61,184 bases of DNA, taken from Spirochaetes bacterium ADurb.BinA120. GTDB lineage: Bacteria; Spirochaetota; UBA4802; UBA5368. This document shows, in pieces, positions 55,139 to 61,184 of the stretch (the first letter of the stretch is position 1; every line of letters begins with the position of its first letter). Where the stretch lies: positions 1 to 61,184 of the forward strand of contig MVZN01000013.1 in NCBI GenBank assembly GCA_002069125.1, read 5' to 3'. A program made the position numbers and the translations under genes. Below the pieces are notes generated by a model. It was given only the letters and a program-made list of their open reading frames with translations. It was not told where the DNA came from and made no database searches.

Positions 55139-55211
55139 GGGCGCTTAGCTCAGCCGGGAGAGCATCTGCCTTACAAGCAGAGGGTCGCAGGTTCGATCCC
55201 TGCAGCGCCCA
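55139..55211 (+). tRNA. tRNA-Val (UAC)
   Basis: A 73-base cloverleaf: acceptor GGGCGCT/AGCGCCC plus discriminator A; anticodon stem TCTGC/GCAGA around CTTACAA, giving anticodon TAC; T arm GCAGG/CCTGC with TTCGATC. CCA is not encoded. An integrase gene starts 111 bases downstream, so its 3' end is the probable attachment site. Confidence 0.95.
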
Positions 55212-55321
55212 AAGACGAAAGGCCTGGAAAGTTCAGGCATTTCAGAAAAGTCTAAAATAGATAGGGGCACCAAAAAAAGGCATGTAGCATCCGTTTGTAG
55301 CACCGGCGTCAAGGGGCACAA

Positions 55322-56503
55322 ATGAAGAAGCGAACAAAGGGATTTAATCTTTACCGTCGTGGCGACACCTGGTACTGCCGTGTATGGGATCAGGACGGTG
55401 GACGGTACACGTCGGCAAAATCCACCGGGGAGCAGGACCGCGACAGAGCATCAATGCGGGCCGCCGAAATGATCCGGAACGGCGAGTTTCGGCTCCATGA
55501 AGAGGATCCCCTATTCCACCAGCTTTATATTGAGTACTGGACGAACCGCAACGACCTTTCCCCGAAATACAAACGCGACGTTTTCAGGTTTTACGAAAAA
55601 TACCTGCGGGACGCGCCCGAACTACAATGCCGGACTTCCCGCCTCGCCGCCTATCAATTCAACCGACTGATCGACCGCCTCGAGCGGTCCGGCACCACCC
55701 CGCGAATGATGAACCGGGTTTTACAGAACGCGAAAACCTTCATTGCATGGGCGAAGCGCCGCGGGTACATCGCGCAAAACTTCAGCGATGAAATCGACCG
55801 CAAAAAAGAGGGGCTACAAGAACGAGGATTTTTTACACTTCAAGAAGTATTTTCGTTTGCCCGCGTGGAGTTTCCAGATATTCGCGTAAAATGCGCGGTG
55901 CTCCTGGGCTGCCTAGGAGGGTTACGACGCGGCGAAATCATGGCCTTAAGATGGGAGGACGTTGATTTTGAACAGGGTGTTATTCACATCAGGCGAAACT
56001 ATACCGGTGACCGCGACCATGCCGGGAACCCTGTTTTCCGTCAACCGAAGATGGGATCGACCGGGACAATTCCAGTACTCCACATCCCAGAATTGCGGCG
56101 AGTGCTCGCGGACGTGCTCGCTGAAACCCCATTTAAAGAACCGCGGCACCTGGTTTTACAGAACACCTGGGAGCGGCGGCGGTCGAACGCGGCCACATCC
56201 GACGGTGAAACACCCCTTAGTGACAGCACCCTAAAGCGTGGCTTCGCCGAAATCTGTATGGCCATCGGGATTTCACCCGACCAGATTCAAGAGCGGCGGC
56301 TCACGTTTCACAGCACACGACATGCGTTTATAACTCACATGAGCGCACACGCCCGCGCCGGGATCGTCCGGCAATTCTCAAGGCAATCATCCGAAAAGAT
56401 GGTTGAGCACTATCAGCACCGCGACGGCGAGGCGATGCTCGACGCCGTGGACAGCTTTAACCGCGGGCTCGACGTGTACCGGGAGCGGCCGGCCCTTAAC
56501 TGA
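55322..56503 (+). CDS. Tyrosine integrase
   Basis: Site-specific recombinase of 393 residues. N-terminal arm-binding region (about 5-55), core-binding SAM-like domain 60-165, catalytic domain with Arg in LGGLRRGEIMALRWEDVDF, Lys in the beta hairpin, HSTRHAFITHM with His and Arg, and the Tyr in MVEHYQHRD. The role is integration at, and excision from, the tRNA-Val 3' end. AAGGGG precedes the ATG. It is the first gene of the element. Confidence 0.9.
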   Translation: MKKRTKGFNLYRRGDTWYCRVWDQDGGRYTSAKSTGEQDRDRASMRAAEMIRNGEFRLHEEDPLFHQLYIEYWTNRNDLSPKYKRDVFRFYEKYLRDAPELQCRTSRLAAYQFNRLIDRLERSGTTPRMMNRVLQNAKTFIAWAKRRGYIAQNFSDEIDRKKEGLQERGFFTLQEVFSFARVEFPDIRVKCAVLLGCLGGLRRGEIMALRWEDVDFEQGVIHIRRNYTGDRDHAGNPVFRQPKMGSTGTIPVLHIPELRRVLADVLAETPFKEPRHLVLQNTWERRRSNAATSDGETPLSDSTLKRGFAEICMAIGISPDQIQERRLTFHSTRHAFITHMSAHARAGIVRQFSRQSSEKMVEHYQHRDGEAMLDAVDSFNRGLDVYRERPALN

Positions 56504-56545
56504 GCGTACACTCCCGGGGATAGCGCGACGGTGCGAAAAGCGGCG

Positions 56546-56573
56546 ATCCTGGCCGCCGGCCCCGGGATTTTTA
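56546..56573 (+). terminator. Candidate terminator after the integrase
   Basis: An imperfect GC-rich hairpin (ATCC-GGCC with GGCC-GGAT) followed by five T lies 43 bases after the integrase stop. Confidence 0.4.
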
Positions 56574-56605
56574 TAACAGGAACCCGTAAAAGGAGGCGGG
56601 GAAGG

Positions 56606-57388
56606 ATGAAAAGCATACTTGAACAGATGGAAGAAGGGCGACGCCTACGGCGGTTCGAGAGTATAGAATCCGACAGGCGTAAAGAAAACGAAAAAGAGGA
56701 CCTCCGGGACAGGCTGGTATACATAAGGCAGATTATTCAAGGGAAGCCCGAAAAAGAGGCGCGAATAATATTAGAGCGGTTCGTTGAGGTCGAAGAAATA
56801 GTCGATGAGCTTATATATTTTATAGACCACGATACAAGCCTTTATCCGCGAGGATCGGGGCCCAAAATACGGCAAGATTTAATCGAGAAGGGCGGGGCAA
56901 TCCCATTTTTTAAGGCTAATCGCGAATTCCTTGGTTTATTCGTGATAGACGGGCACGGCTGGCTTTTACAGGAAATCGTCAAGCTCTACGATCTACTTTC
57001 GACAGACGCCGCGCCGCCACAAACCGAAACCCGGGAGGAGCGCCGGGCGCTTATCGATAAAAAAGGAGAATCGGCACCGAAGGCGGTTGACCATGCAGAA
57101 CTTTTGAAGAAAAAGGGCGTAGAACCAACCGGAAGCCTCATAAAATGTCTCGAACATTTAAACGAAAATGGATGGATTGAGGCAAACCCTAATTTCCCCG
57201 ACCGAGAAGAAAGCCCTTATCGGATACCGTCAAGCGAGGCGGCGTACAATGTCGCCCGTTACCAGAAAGAGCAAAAGCCCGCAGGGATGAAGGCTTCCGA
57301 ATTTGGGGGCCTCTTCTATTACGACGGAAAGCCCTTCGATATTGAAAGCCGCCGAAGTAATCTCGGCAAAAAGAAAACGAAACCATAA
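56606..57388 (+). CDS. Element protein of unknown function
   Basis: Protein of 260 residues, highly charged and helical in the first 120 residues; around 165-225 a helical segment (DHAELLKKKGVEPTGSLIKCLEHLNENGWI) resembles a winged-helix DNA-binding domain. The ATG at 56606 has AGGAGG nine bases upstream; the frame's earlier GTG has none. Ended by a clear terminator at 57416. Confidence 0.65.
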   Translation: MKSILEQMEEGRRLRRFESIESDRRKENEKEDLRDRLVYIRQIIQGKPEKEARIILERFVEVEEIVDELIYFIDHDTSLYPRGSGPKIRQDLIEKGGAIPFFKANREFLGLFVIDGHGWLLQEIVKLYDLLSTDAAPPQTETREERRALIDKKGESAPKAVDHAELLKKKGVEPTGSLIKCLEHLNENGWIEANPNFPDREESPYRIPSSEAAYNVARYQKEQKPAGMKASEFGGLFYYDGKPFDIESRRSNLGKKKTKP

Positions 57389-57443: not shown

Positions 57444-57486
57444 ATTTCTACGCGAAAAATATTTGTGCGGGCGCGTAGAATACGCG
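57421..57486 (+). promoter_or_regulatory. Cluster of ACGCG motifs before the excisionase gene
   Basis: ACGCG or its complement occurs five times in 66 bases, including an inverted repeat CTACGCG (57448-57454)/CGCGTAG (57472-57478) around an AT-rich core and a final ACGCGG. Two copies are in the terminator stem; the rest could be operator sites for the HTH protein at 57553. Confidence 0.4.
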
Positions 57487-57552
57487 GACAAAAAGCGTGA
57501 GTCATGCGAAATTATGAGTGTTGTTAATCGCGAATCGTACGGGAGGCGTGAA

Positions 57553-57738
57553 ATGACTAGTCTTACAAATAACGAGCGACCGTGGCTCACGCCGAAAGAG
57601 GTTGCGGCGCTCACTGCGCAATCAGAGCCGACAATCCGGCGACAGTGCTATTCGGGAATTCTACCCTCGCGCAAATTCGGAAGGGCGCTTCGCATACCGC
57701 GCGCAGCGGTTGAACCGAAACGGAGCGGCGAGGCATAA
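57553..57738 (+). CDS. Excisionase-like HTH protein
   Basis: Protein of 61 residues with WLTPKEVAALTAQSEPTIRRQCYSGILPSRKFGRALRIPRAAV, the winged HTH_17/excisionase pattern (helix, helix, arginine-rich wing). It probably directs excision by the integrase or controls early element genes. GGGAGG precedes the ATG. It is the first gene of the replication operon. Confidence 0.82.
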   Translation: MTSLTNNERPWLTPKEVAALTAQSEPTIRRQCYSGILPSRKFGRALRIPRAAVEPKRSGEA

Positions 57739-57748
57739 AAAATGCAAA

Positions 57749-57774
57749 CGCCCCGGCGAGGCAGGCCGGGGCGC
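57749..57774 (+). other. GC-rich hairpin between xis-like gene and next gene
   Basis: CGCCCCGGC and GCCGGGGCG form a nine-base-pair stem with a seven-base loop, without a T run, 12 bases after the HTH gene. It may lower read-through or protect the message. Confidence 0.4.
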
Positions 57775-57795
57775 GAGGATGAAACCGAGGAGACA

Positions 57796-58062
57796 ATGGA
57801 CAAATCAAAATTTAAGACGCTGAGCCGTCCGCGTCAAGTCAAAAACAGAATGCCGGAACAATATTTTGAGTTCTACCGGGGCGGACGTTTTTTCTACGCC
57901 GACCGGCGGGGGAATTTGAATTCAAACCCGGATAAATGGTTGCTCGACGACGGGCACATCAACGAGGTGTTCGTCGGTCGTGAGCTCGCAGAAATAGAGC
58001 ACGAAATTTTGAAATATTTTTACCCGAAAACCGCGGCGGCGCGTTCGAAGGTCCAGCGATGA
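57796..58062 (+). CDS. Small element protein, unknown
   Basis: Protein of 88 residues with a basic start and an aromatic core (YFEFYRGGRFFYADRRG). Not recognised. GAGGAG precedes the ATG. Its TGA overlaps the primase ATG (ATGA), so the two are translated together. Confidence 0.65.
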   Translation: MDKSKFKTLSRPRQVKNRMPEQYFEFYRGGRFFYADRRGNLNSNPDKWLLDDGHINEVFVGRELAEIEHEILKYFYPKTAAARSKVQR

Positions 58063-58808
58063 CCCCGTCTGATCTGATTTTCTCGCGCAGCGGCTACACT
58101 CTCCCGGCTCATCCCGACGGTCGCCCGCGGTGCAAGGACCTCGACGAAAACCGCATCCGATCCCGTGGCCAGCTCGCCGAGGCATACAGGCGCGGCACAC
58201 GTCGTTTCGTATTCCCGCCGACGTCGGCGCGGATGGTGGGTGTTGACCTCGATATGAAATCCGGCAAGGATGGAATCGCCGCTTATCGTGAAATCACCGG
58301 CATCGATCCGCGCGACGGGTTTCACACATCCACGCCGAGCGGCGGTGTGCACGTTTATTTTTTTACCGACGGAACGGATTATGTCTCGTGCGAAATCCGC
58401 CCGGGCGTTGAAATAAAATCGCGCGCATTTATTACCTTACCCGGCAGCCGTTCAGATCGTGGAGTGTACATCCCACACGGAGACCCCGCCGAAATTGGAG
58501 ACATTCCGGCCGCGCTCGCGGCGATCCTTCCGGTCCGGCGTACCGAGCCCGAACCCTTGCCGGCGAGGCCCGCAAATGCGGAGGTGCTCCCGCTCGCTCG
58601 TATTTTCGAGACCGTCGTTTCCCAGGGCACCGCGCCGCTCGCAGGCTCGCGGAATCAATTCATATTCTCGTTCGCTCGTTTCGCACGGCGCAAGGGACAC
58701 AATCTCGAATCCGTCGTGCACTACCTTTCGTCCTTCGCGAGTGCCGATTTTTCCACCCGGGAGATATGGTCCACCGTTCGGAGTGCGTGGCGCGGGGGCT
58801 CGCGATGA
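58059..58808 (+). CDS. Prim-Pol family primase/polymerase
   Basis: Protein of 249 residues with the archaeo-eukaryotic primase (Prim-Pol) domain: metal ligands Asp63/Asp65 in GVDLDMKSG, His98 in TPSGGVHVYFF, and EIKSRAFITLPGS for nucleotide binding. A C-terminal helical PriCT-like segment follows (NQFIFSFARFARRKG). Such domains prime and extend DNA for phages and plasmids. It overlaps the helicase gene (ATGA), so the replication module is split into two coupled proteins. Confidence 0.85.
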   Translation: MTPSDLIFSRSGYTLPAHPDGRPRCKDLDENRIRSRGQLAEAYRRGTRRFVFPPTSARMVGVDLDMKSGKDGIAAYREITGIDPRDGFHTSTPSGGVHVYFFTDGTDYVSCEIRPGVEIKSRAFITLPGSRSDRGVYIPHGDPAEIGDIPAALAAILPVRRTEPEPLPARPANAEVLPLARIFETVVSQGTAPLAGSRNQFIFSFARFARRKGHNLESVVHYLSSFASADFSTREIWSTVRSAWRGGSR

Positions 58809-60241
58809 TAGTTGAAATTAAGCGCGAAGCCGTCCCGACGCTACCTTCTGTTTCACGTGGCACAATTACTATGCCCGCGGACTGGACGTTTCGGCCCTCT
58901 GATCTGTCAAATTCGCAGATATTCGCGGCGCTCGCTCGCGGGCGCATCCTGTATGTGCCGGAACTTAAAAGCTGGATTAAATATGACGGCACTCGGTGGG
59001 TAAAGGATTCTCAGCGCGTGGCGGTCGAAAATATCTGTATCGAGGCAATACAGGCTGTTTATGCACTGAGCGCTGCCGCTGAAAATGAGCAGGCCCGCAA
59101 AACCTATGCCGCATGGGCCCTCCGTTCTGAGGACGAAAGCCGGCGGCGCGCGATGGTGGCCGGGGCCGAACGTGTGCAAGCGCTCATCAAGCCCCTTTCT
59201 CATTTTGACCGCGACATATATTTATACAATTGCGAAAACGGAACACTCAATCTTAAAACCGGCGATCTCCAACCGCATCGAGAGGACGATTATCTCATGC
59301 ACATCGGCGGGACTTATTACGATCCAAATGCAGAGTGTCCATTATGGATGGATACAATACAAAAGGCGTTCCGGGGCGATGCAGAAACCATCGAATTCTA
59401 TCAGCGATTTTCCGGGTACACCCTGACCGGGCATGTTATGGAAAAAGTAATTGCTTTTCTTTATGGGGCCCGGGGGGACAACGGAAAATCAACCATCACG
59501 AACGCCGAAGGTGAAATTCTCGGTGACTATCACATGAAAATGTCGGCCTCAACGCTTCTTGCAGGCAGCCGTCGCGATCCCGGGGGGCCGAGCGAAGACC
59601 TTGCACGCATCGCAGGCAAGCGGCGCATCACAGCCTCCGAGCTGCCGGAGGGCGCGCGATGGAATGATTCACTATTAAAAGACCTTTCCGGCGGCGATAG
59701 TATCAACGCGCGACACCTTCACGCCGAGTCGTTCGACTTCATCCCACAAGCGAAGCTCGTTATTTTCGGGAATCACAAGCCCGCCGTACGTGGCGGAGAT
59801 AATGCAGTTCGGAATCGAATACGAATGATTCCGTTCAACCACGTATTCAAGCCGAAAGATCGAGATATGCCAGAAAAGCTCCGCGCAGAGTATCCCGGAA
59901 TCCTTCGATGGATGGTTGAAGGCTGTATGAAATGGCAGTCCGCCGACAGCCTGGGAGAGCCCGGCACGGTCACAAGAGAAACGGACGCTTATTTTCTCGA
60001 AAACAACCCCTTGAAACAATTCATGGATGACCGGTTCGAGCTCTCTGAAAACGAGAAGGTGCCCTTCAAAAATGTGTACGAGGATTTTCGCGAATTCACC
60101 GGATCGACGAAGCTGTCAAAGGTCAAATTTTCGATGATAATGCAGGATCAATACCCCGTCCACGTCGCAGCGGGACACGGAAATGAGCGCTTTATTTATG
60201 GACTTCGGCCAAAAAATGACGCGCGGCGGGATTTATTATGA
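58805..60241 (+). CDS. D5/P4-type superfamily 3 replicative helicase
   Basis: Protein of 478 residues: an N-terminal D5_N-like domain (about 25-190), then an SF3 helicase with Walker A GARGDNGKST (Lys228), Walker B-like ITASELPEG, motif C in LVIFGNHKP, and an arginine-finger region RNRIRMIPF. It unwinds the element's origin and works with the Prim-Pol. The ATG at 58805 overlaps the primase stop. The large inverted repeat begins six bases after its stop. Confidence 0.88.
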   Translation: MIVEIKREAVPTLPSVSRGTITMPADWTFRPSDLSNSQIFAALARGRILYVPELKSWIKYDGTRWVKDSQRVAVENICIEAIQAVYALSAAAENEQARKTYAAWALRSEDESRRRAMVAGAERVQALIKPLSHFDRDIYLYNCENGTLNLKTGDLQPHREDDYLMHIGGTYYDPNAECPLWMDTIQKAFRGDAETIEFYQRFSGYTLTGHVMEKVIAFLYGARGDNGKSTITNAEGEILGDYHMKMSASTLLAGSRRDPGGPSEDLARIAGKRRITASELPEGARWNDSLLKDLSGGDSINARHLHAESFDFIPQAKLVIFGNHKPAVRGGDNAVRNRIRMIPFNHVFKPKDRDMPEKLRAEYPGILRWMVEGCMKWQSADSLGEPGTVTRETDAYFLENNPLKQFMDDRFELSENEKVPFKNVYEDFREFTGSTKLSKVKFSMIMQDQYPVHVAAGHGNERFIYGLRPKNDARRDLL

Positions 60242-60246
60242 AGAGC

Positions 60247-60356
60247 CGGGTTAACGGGTTAACCATGTTAACTGAAAATACCTGTTTTTTTAACTCACAG
60301 CTCTCGTGAAGAAAAACCAGGGGTTTCAGTTAACCACGTTAACCCGTTAACCCGGA
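60247..60356. repeat. Large inverted repeat of three plus three GTTAAC units
   Basis: Arms 60247-60278 and 60325-60356 match at 29 of 32 positions (18 identical pairs, three mismatches, 11 identical pairs). Each arm holds three GTTAAC (251-256, 259-264, 268-273 and 330-335, 339-344, 347-352, offsets from 60000), spaced eight to nine bases. Pairing extends inward through CCTG/CAGG and T5/A5, so nearly the whole 110 bases can fold as one hairpin. It fills the gap between the helicase stop and the next gene's ribosome site. Confidence 0.9.
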
Positions 60357-60372
60357 AAAAGGAGGATAGGAC

Positions 60373-60747
60373 ATGGAAAAGTACATAATTATCACAACAC
60401 CCGATCCAGAGTACCGTAAATCGAACCGGTGGTTCGACCAGTGCGAACGAGAACACCGCCCATTCGTAAAAATCGTCAAGAAAACGCGATACTATGAGCT
60501 CCACTGGGATTATATCAGCCTGTGCGCGAAGGGCCGATTTGAGATGACAAAGGAAGGGCTCGAACAGTCTCACGCCTTCATGTGCAGGCATTGGCCACTC
60601 AAAAGGCCCTTTTGGTATTACGGACCGGTGGGATCGATCCCCAAACTTACCCTTGAACAAGCTCGAAAAGCGGCGGTCGAGATATACGACCTTCTCGCCT
60701 CGCAGCCCGTCTTCACATATCCCGGAGGGGGCGACAATGGACGCTAG
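60373..60747 (+). CDS. Element protein of unknown function
   Basis: Protein of 124 residues, aromatic and charged (MEKYIIITTPDPEYRKSNRWFD), with no recognised motif. A strong AAGGAGG site precedes the ATG, right after the inverted repeat. It overlaps the next small gene by 11 bases. Confidence 0.7.
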   Translation: MEKYIIITTPDPEYRKSNRWFDQCEREHRPFVKIVKKTRYYELHWDYISLCAKGRFEMTKEGLEQSHAFMCRHWPLKRPFWYYGPVGSIPKLTLEQARKAAVEIYDLLASQPVFTYPGGGDNGR

Positions 60748-60838
60748 AAAAGAATACGTTCTCTTGTGGCTCCGAATGGCGGACCTTTACGCACGGATGC
60801 GGCGGATGCGGAGGAATTACTGTGAAAGTGGTGCATAA
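60737..60838 (+). CDS. Small basic protein of 33 residues
   Basis: MDARKEYVLLWLRMADLYARMRRMRRNYCESGA: a short helical, Arg-rich peptide. GGAGG lies six to ten bases before the ATG, inside the previous gene's end. Its last codons and TAA form the first copy of the GGTGCATAA repeat. Not recognised; too short for a firm call. Confidence 0.5.
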   Translation: MDARKEYVLLWLRMADLYARMRRMRRNYCESGA

Positions 60839-60975
60839 GGTGCATAAGGTGCATAACTCACCCCTACGGGGAATTTTCACGAATGGGGGTATAAACCTTA
60901 TATATAGCAATATGTATAGAAAAGCAAAAAATACAGGGAGGGTCAACTGTGCACTTTATACACCTTATGCACCAC
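60828..60975. repeat. Inverted iteron cassette of GGTGCATAA units
   Basis: Three perfect tandem copies of GGTGCATAA (60830-60838, 60839-60847, 60848-60856) face inverted copies at 60965-60973 (perfect), 60956-60964 (one change) and 60947-60955 (6 of 9). The arms enclose about 90 bases: a CCCC/GGGG hairpin near 60861-60871 and an AT-rich core with TATATATA near 60900. The layout is that of the first cassette with a different motif. Confidence 0.85.
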
Positions 60976-60996
60976 TCAAAGCAATGGAGGCATGAT

Positions 60997-61068
60997 ATGA
61001 TTTTTACGGAATCGATTCTCGCGCTGTTCGCGCTCATTATCTTGGTTGCCGGGGGCCGGGGATGGTAA
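60997..61068 (+). CDS. Single-pass membrane microprotein of 23 residues
   Basis: Frame beginning MIFTESILALFALIILVAGG and ending RGW; almost all of it is one hydrophobic helix, so a membrane peptide. GGAGG lies six bases before the ATG. It directly follows the GGTGCATAA cassette and overlaps the next frame by seven bases. Unknown; it could be a holin-like or regulatory peptide. Confidence 0.5.
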   Translation: MIFTESILALFALIILVAGGRGW

Positions 61069-61175
61069 GGGGGGCATCAAGGTACTGGGACGCGATCGAG
61101 CGCTTCGACGCGCATCAAACCGCGACCTCCCTTTTTCTCACGTGCGACAAGTTTTATAAAATACTAAAATGGTAA
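61062..61175 (+). CDS. Small unknown protein of 37 residues
   Basis: Frame begins MVRGASRYWDAIERFD and ends FYKILKW. It overlaps the microprotein. A GGGG stretch is directly upstream. Its stop codon lies inside the ATGGTAAT tandem repeat, as seen for the gene before the GGTGCATAA cassette. Not recognised. Confidence 0.45.
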   Translation: MVRGASRYWDAIERFDAHQTATSLFLTCDKFYKILKW

Positions 61176-61184
61176 TATGGTAAT
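61169..61184 (+). repeat. ATGGTAAT tandem repeat cut by window end
   Basis: Two perfect tandem copies of the octamer ATGGTAAT (61169-61176 and 61177-61184) end exactly at the window border. The array may continue. Confidence 0.5.

Follow-up and report, generated by a model that had tools for sequence, protein, structure and literature searches.

Iteron cassettes with different motifs downstream of a D5-family helicase gene in an integrated element of a spirochaete-related genome

In the SaPI Rep helicases, it is the C-terminal domain that recognises iterons directly 3' of the helicase's own gene, and the C-terminal domain of Cch2, a D5-type SCCmec helicase, binds repeats that follow its gene (PMC7581432). 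Origins of related form are annotated in phages. The rep_origin of Lactobacillus phage A2 (AJ251789, 32208-32717) starts at the stop codon of the D5 primase gene and continues with ACGGGAGGAT iterons, an AT-rich core, inverted ATCCTCCCGT, a ribosome site and the next gene. In Streptococcus phage Sfi21, a 302-bp origin annotated as 'phage inhibitory sequence' is located at the primase stop and contains AGTTACTTAGTTAC, an AT-rich core and GTAACTAAGTAACT; this origin is a phage-encoded resistance element, which has decoy activity when cloned (PMC6356513). An earlier note on the DNA studied here described a recurring layout of gene end, tandem motif, inverted motif, ribosome site and next gene, and knew of no named feature with this form. 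The form does have a name, as it is the iteron origin that lies directly 3' of SaPI Rep/D5-type helicase genes (PMC7581432) and of the A2 and Sfi21 primase genes.

All of the DNA analysed here, called the window, makes up an entire contig (61,184 of 61,184 bases; G000:C13) of an assembly of 3.5 Mb in 216 contigs. An integrated element starts at a tRNA-Val gene, its presumed attachment site, and runs off the contig end at 61184. The relevant features of the element are as follows.

55139-55211, + strand: tRNA-Val (tac), with the start of the integrase gene 111 nt beyond
55322-56503, + strand: tyrosine integrase of the element (Pfam PF00589, E 4e-16; PHROG integrase)
57463-57738, + strand: HTH_17/excisionase-like DNA-binding protein (PF12728; PHROG 66/575)
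58059-58808, + strand: Prim-Pol primase with PriCT-1 (PF09250, PF08708)
58802-60241, + strand: D5-family SF3 helicase, SaPI5 Rep-like (PF08706, E 5e-25; structural model; 7ola alignment)
60246-60355, no strand: cassette 1, with three iterons of the GGGTTAAC type and three inverted ones on either side of an AT-rich core
60373-60747, + strand: 124-aa ORF between the cassettes, without confident family
60737-60838, + strand: 33-aa ORF whose stop TAA lies inside the first cassette 2 copy (from sequence)
60827-60976, no strand: cassette 2, with three GGTGCATAA iterons and three inverted copies on either side of an AT-rich core that contains TATATATAG
60997-61068, + strand: 23-aa hydrophobic ORF, 3' of cassette 2 (from sequence)
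61062-61175, + strand: 37-aa ORF whose stop TAA lies inside the first ATGGTAAT copy (from sequence)
61169-61184, no strand: ATGGTAAT twice in tandem as the last bases of the contig, possible beginning of a third cassette

Two further ORFs between integrase and primase (56531-57388 and 57742-58062) have no Pfam or PHROG match, while the 124-aa ORF has a weak Arm-DNA-bind match below the Pfam cut-off and no match in phage records. In addition, the 3' end of the tRNA-Val gene (window 55139-55330) was found twice on contig C84 of the same assembly (763-811 and 2491-2532; 96% and 93%), where the fragments adjoin small mobile-element genes and a TrkH gene and are probably the right attachment ends of this element and of another one. 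Contig C84, which was checked as the other end of the element, contains no cassette. The whole 3.5-Mb assembly holds one D5 gene only.

Cassette 1 starts 5 nt past the D5 stop codon (60239-60241). Its GTTAAC copies at 60250, 60258 and 60267 face an opposed array at 60329, 60338 and 60346; GTTAAC is itself a palindrome, and the orientation of the arrays was read from their flanks (GGGTTAAC and GTTAACCC, respectively). The whole forms an imperfect inverted repeat with arms of 44 nt, 82% complementary, and a loop of 22 nt, followed on the 3' side by AAAGGAGG and the ATG at 60373. Both full cassettes consist of three short repeats, a core of about 55 to 90 nt and inverted repeats, and the GC content of the core is 37.5% in cassette 1 and 39% in cassette 2. 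The site directly 3' of the D5-type gene has the opposed arrays of short iterons and the AT-rich core of an iteron origin. The D5 helicase (58802-60241), which is the presumed initiator, was modelled by AlphaFold with a pLDDT of 91, and the model predicts with high pLDDT a C-terminal winged helix (residues ~422-470; helices 422-433 and 440-450, strands 454-470), as expected of the initiator of such an origin. The alignment with the SaPI5 helicase 7ola (Z 30) covers 393 residues and spans residues 22-474.

To place these structures among related loci, D5 homologues were gathered from the genomes of relatives and from IMG/VR and GTDB contigs, and cassettes were called by a detector requiring at least two tandem plus two inverted copies of an 8-mer. 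On the 61-kb window, the detector finds exactly two places, cassettes 1 and 2, with 10 hits each, while twenty dinucleotide shuffles of the window gave 0.4 clusters per window, mostly one-hit. A cassette at -60..+500 of the D5 stop is present at 65 of 160 non-redundant loci versus 1.2 in shuffles, and cassette density reaches 1.9 per kb at -60..+150 versus 0.00-0.18 per kb in other intervals. The enlarged set of 206 non-redundant D5 loci includes 81 with a cassette at the helicase stop. No cassette was called by this detector at the other 125 of 206 loci, which is attributed to degenerate iterons or to origins sited elsewhere. The motif is mostly locus-specific (TATGACGG, GTGTGACG, GGTTACAC, TTCTGAGG, GTGGAGGG and many others), while the layout and the AT-rich core are constant; core GC is 42% versus 56% for the loci and is lower in 54 of 58, and TATAGA is enriched. 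The suggestion that selection acts on structure with changing sequence is borne out by this comparison of sequences, in which the layout is retained at D5-family loci of different phyla and the motif varies.

The closest relative, L006, which belongs to the same order, carries GTTAAC iterons, the window's own motif, overlapping its D5 stop; the closest relatives have one cassette each and no second one. Single-protein genome scans gave no close D5 relative. The bare GTTAAC triplet was also tried as a marker and is not diagnostic, with more than 120 matches in viral contigs and a D5 gene at one locus only. Some D5 loci place their repeats differently. In L379, opposed GTTACA/TGTAACC arrays form a cassette that lies 5' of the D5 gene and not 3' of it, about 3 kb before the D5 stop. 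In Mycobacterium phage Milly (L354), an iteron cluster of GGACGGAT/ATCTGTCC at +139..+355 of the primase stop lies within gp73, a gene annotated as hypothetical that is perhaps an origin annotated wrongly. Two loci of Candidatus Contendobacter (L278 and L280) contain three successive GATGTTGA cassettes in alternating orientation at -49..+316 of the D5 stop.

Similar D5 C-termini go together with common motifs, and over all pairs the partial Spearman coefficient is 0.14 for the C-terminus versus 0.11 for the helicase core, a slight difference, so the motif correlation is weak on its own. A closer view is given by phage D5s in which the iterons switched as a set from AGTGAATACC (L332/L340) to ATGTATACC (L331/L333/L334/L335/L341). 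Only 8 of 792 D5 residues separate the two groups, and two of these differences, K769R and N771T, lie two residues apart in the C-terminal wing. This single event is consistent with iteron specificity encoded in the wing.

Because of the linkage to D5, the form shared with A2 and Sfi21, the D5 model and the wing-associated iteron switch, cassette 1 is very probably the replication origin of the window D5. The D5 linkage, the layout, the AT-rich core, the D5-tracking divergence of motifs and the A2/Sfi21 form are established by comparison at the level of sequence, while binding, melting and replication in the window element are what we infer from them. Taken jointly, there is good reason to believe that both full cassettes are iteron origins of the D5/SaPI5-Rep type, cassette 1 being read by D5 and cassette 2 being an additional, differently addressed, origin-like site. 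Each would present a self-loading D5/SaPI5-Rep helicase with an AT-rich core between two opposed arrays of iterons. At cassette 1, the D5 helicase encoded just 5' would bind the iterons through its C-terminal winged helix, the opposed arrays would position two D5 hexamers head to head, the AT-rich core would melt, and the Prim-Pol encoded next door would prime bidirectional replication of the excised element.

In cassette 2, GGTGCATAA starts at 60830, 60839 and 60848, and the first copy includes the in-frame TAA of the ORF at 60737-60838. The inverted side contains TTATACACC (60956), TTATGCACC (60965) and a degenerate third copy; one inverted copy is exact and one has a single mismatch. The arms are 37 nt long and 84% complementary, and GGAGG and the ATG at 60997 follow on the 3' side. 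An exact 9-nt tandem, CGGATGCGG x2, also occurs at 60794-60811 within the 33-aa ORF just 5' of cassette 2; it is coding and has no inverted copy. Like cassette 1, cassette 2 has two opposed iteron arrays with an AT-rich core between them, but it lies 3' of the 33-aa ORF, about 590 nt past the D5 stop. Since it does not adjoin the D5 gene, it is termed origin-like and is not counted as a member of the type. Scans of viral contigs and of 393 genomes of the phylum found no D5 protein next to GGTGCATAA iterons, which leaves cassette 2 without a known reader. What these scans did return was one repeat-coding gene, one chance site with two copies, and matches within coding sequence, and none of these adjoins D5. 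Cassette 2 is an extra origin-like site of other specificity and is probably not read by the same D5.

Cassette 3 consists of ATGGTAATATGGTAAT alone, on the last 16 bases, and its first copy includes the TAA of the ORF at 61062-61175. The contig stops right after ATGGTAAT x2, and any inverted ATTACCAT would fall beyond 61184. There is no further copy of ATGGTAATATGGTAAT in the genome. The window contains 11 exact short tandems of this kind, compared with about 4 in shuffled sequence, so cassette 3 is only suggestive, although it is possibly the start of another cassette. The earlier note had counted the layout twice in full and apparently a third time; the two full cassettes are the only such structures in the window, and the third is a suggestion. 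Its observations that the motif is new each time (GTTAAC, GGTGCATAA and ATGGTAAT differ) and that the first copy overlaps the preceding stop codon in the last two hold as described.

Most D5 loci have a single motif, and several repeat one motif. Two cassettes with unrelated motifs occur at about 6 of 206 loci including the window (about 5 of the 205 others), in unrelated hosts. L235 carries GGTGCCTA and then AGTGACTA, with an 18-nt core, GCATATRGGACTTTTGAA, common to both cassettes; L240 carries AACTGAAC and then AAGTGGAC; and L314 carries GATGCATG, followed by AGTGGTTCA at +662. L232 is less typical, with TGTGTATAG at the D5 stop and GGTACACC at +553 on the stop of the next gene, the second core being short and not AT-rich, and L337 has a weaker, less typical pair of cassettes. 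At +350 to +1500 of the D5 stop, the detector finds 6 loci versus 0.6 in shuffles, and three of the 6, namely the window, L314 and L232, were accepted as having true second cassettes. The second hits of L264 and L403 are GC-rich chance or another type of repeat, and L370 has one displaced cassette, not a double. L075 combines a D5-linked GGGACGGTA cassette with a separate tandem GTTAAC triplet (659-681) before an HTH gene, and is possibly another two-motif element. The serial, differently addressed arrangement is therefore real, recurrent and uncommon. A limited search of the literature found no description of a second, differently addressed cassette.

Other accounts of these cassettes have to be weighed. 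Cassette 2, perhaps together with cassette 3, might be an old origin that is no longer read, after a new D5 3' end with its origin was swapped in by recombination. Iteron motifs do change as a group along with D5, repeated swapping of replication modules (RepA plus origin) is described for satellites (PMC8263062), and double-cassette loci are rare; however, the detector hits show equal preservation of cassettes 1 and 2, and the L235 cassettes have their 18-nt core in common, which a random leftover need not have. We regard such a relic as a tenable but minority possibility. Alternatively, cassette 2 might match the initiator of another mobile element in the same host, and either borrow its D5 or titrate it as an anti-phage decoy, in the way of the cloned Sfi21 origin. 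That origin is laid out alike, blocks phages to an extent that depends on copy number, and is activated by infection (PMC6356513), while initiator-origin pairs are specific and origin-directed attack selects module swapping in satellites (PMC8263062); GGTGCA-like iterons also adjoin D5 in other elements (L314, L235). The scans of viral contigs and of the 393 genomes nevertheless revealed no element combining D5 with GGTGCATAA iterons, and a bait or hijacking role is considered unlikely. It is likewise doubtful that cassette 2 is read by a second initiator or DNA-binding domain encoded beyond the contig end, or that D5 reads both motifs. The element is cut at 61184, and in L232 a 142-aa protein just 5' of the second cassette has a C-terminus that looks winged-helix-like by eye only, but the assembly has its single D5 gene, the motifs of the two cassettes are unrelated, and elsewhere a two-residue change in the wing accompanied a full motif switch.

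Roles apart from replication fare worse. The cassettes are placed precisely in the gaps that separate a stop codon from the following ribosome site, and their arms could pair as a hairpin, as would suit transcription operators, attenuators or terminator hairpins between genes. In 59 of 76 D5-linked cassettes, cassette 1 included, the spacing of one arm does not mirror that of the other, which speaks against a hairpin role; moreover, the cassettes are linked specifically to D5 and annotated origins share their form, which leaves this explanation very improbable, with a small probability left for operators at cassette 2. Small genes between the cassettes would be expected of recombination sites, such as integron-like or IS-like junctions, but the motif differs at every site, with no common core site, so one recombinase could not join the cassettes. 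Shuffling of the intervening genes, which the earlier note had proposed to check, is not shown, and phage records contain no homologue of the 124-aa ORF. A recombination role can practically be dismissed. Of the three guesses made earlier, serial origins was the right one, and the palindromic joining of gene cassettes found no support.

Beyond the reading of cassette 2 as an additional, differently addressed origin, it may be speculated, with little confidence, that some D5-type mobile elements carry a battery of origins with varied iteron specificities but encode a single helicase, the extra origins being cognate to the helicases of rivals. If so, an element with extra origins could replicate on, or soak up, the initiator of a rival. 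Provided that the extra, differently addressed origins are functional, replication piracy or decoy defence between mobile elements would leave a trace that can be read in the sequence. In addition, opposed iterons at the D5 stop provide a simple sequence rule for finding origins in many unannotated phages and islands, and natural iteron switches tie specificity to the C-terminal wing of the helicase.

Among known systems, the SaPI5/SaPIbov1 origin resembles cassette 1 in its short iterons directly 3' of the gene for the self-loading Rep helicase, and the SaPI5 helicase is predicted to share its fold with the window D5. In contrast, each SaPI is described as having a single origin and resides in Staphylococcus, whereas the window element has at least two cassettes with different motifs and belongs to a spirochaete-related MAG, whose phylum was assigned from its relatives. 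The A2 rep_origin differs in having a single motif; the Sfi21 origin also has one motif and targets homologous phages, while no partner of cassette 2 is known. The SCCmec Cch2 origin has three direct repeats in a 23-bp stretch, and its inverted repeats are dispensable for binding. Satellite phage P4 has two separate iteron regions, ori1 and crr, for one primase-helicase, but both bear the same iteron, unlike the window cassettes with their differing motifs. The PLE RepA origin is similar in that its initiator-iteron pairs are modular and are swapped under attack by an origin-directed nuclease (PMC8263062), and differs in its RepA_N initiator, its semi-palindromic iterons of about 30 bp and its one origin per element. 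Compared with these systems, cassette 1 is a further member of an already known origin type, and what appears to be new is the combination of a probable D5 origin with a second origin-like cassette of a different motif.
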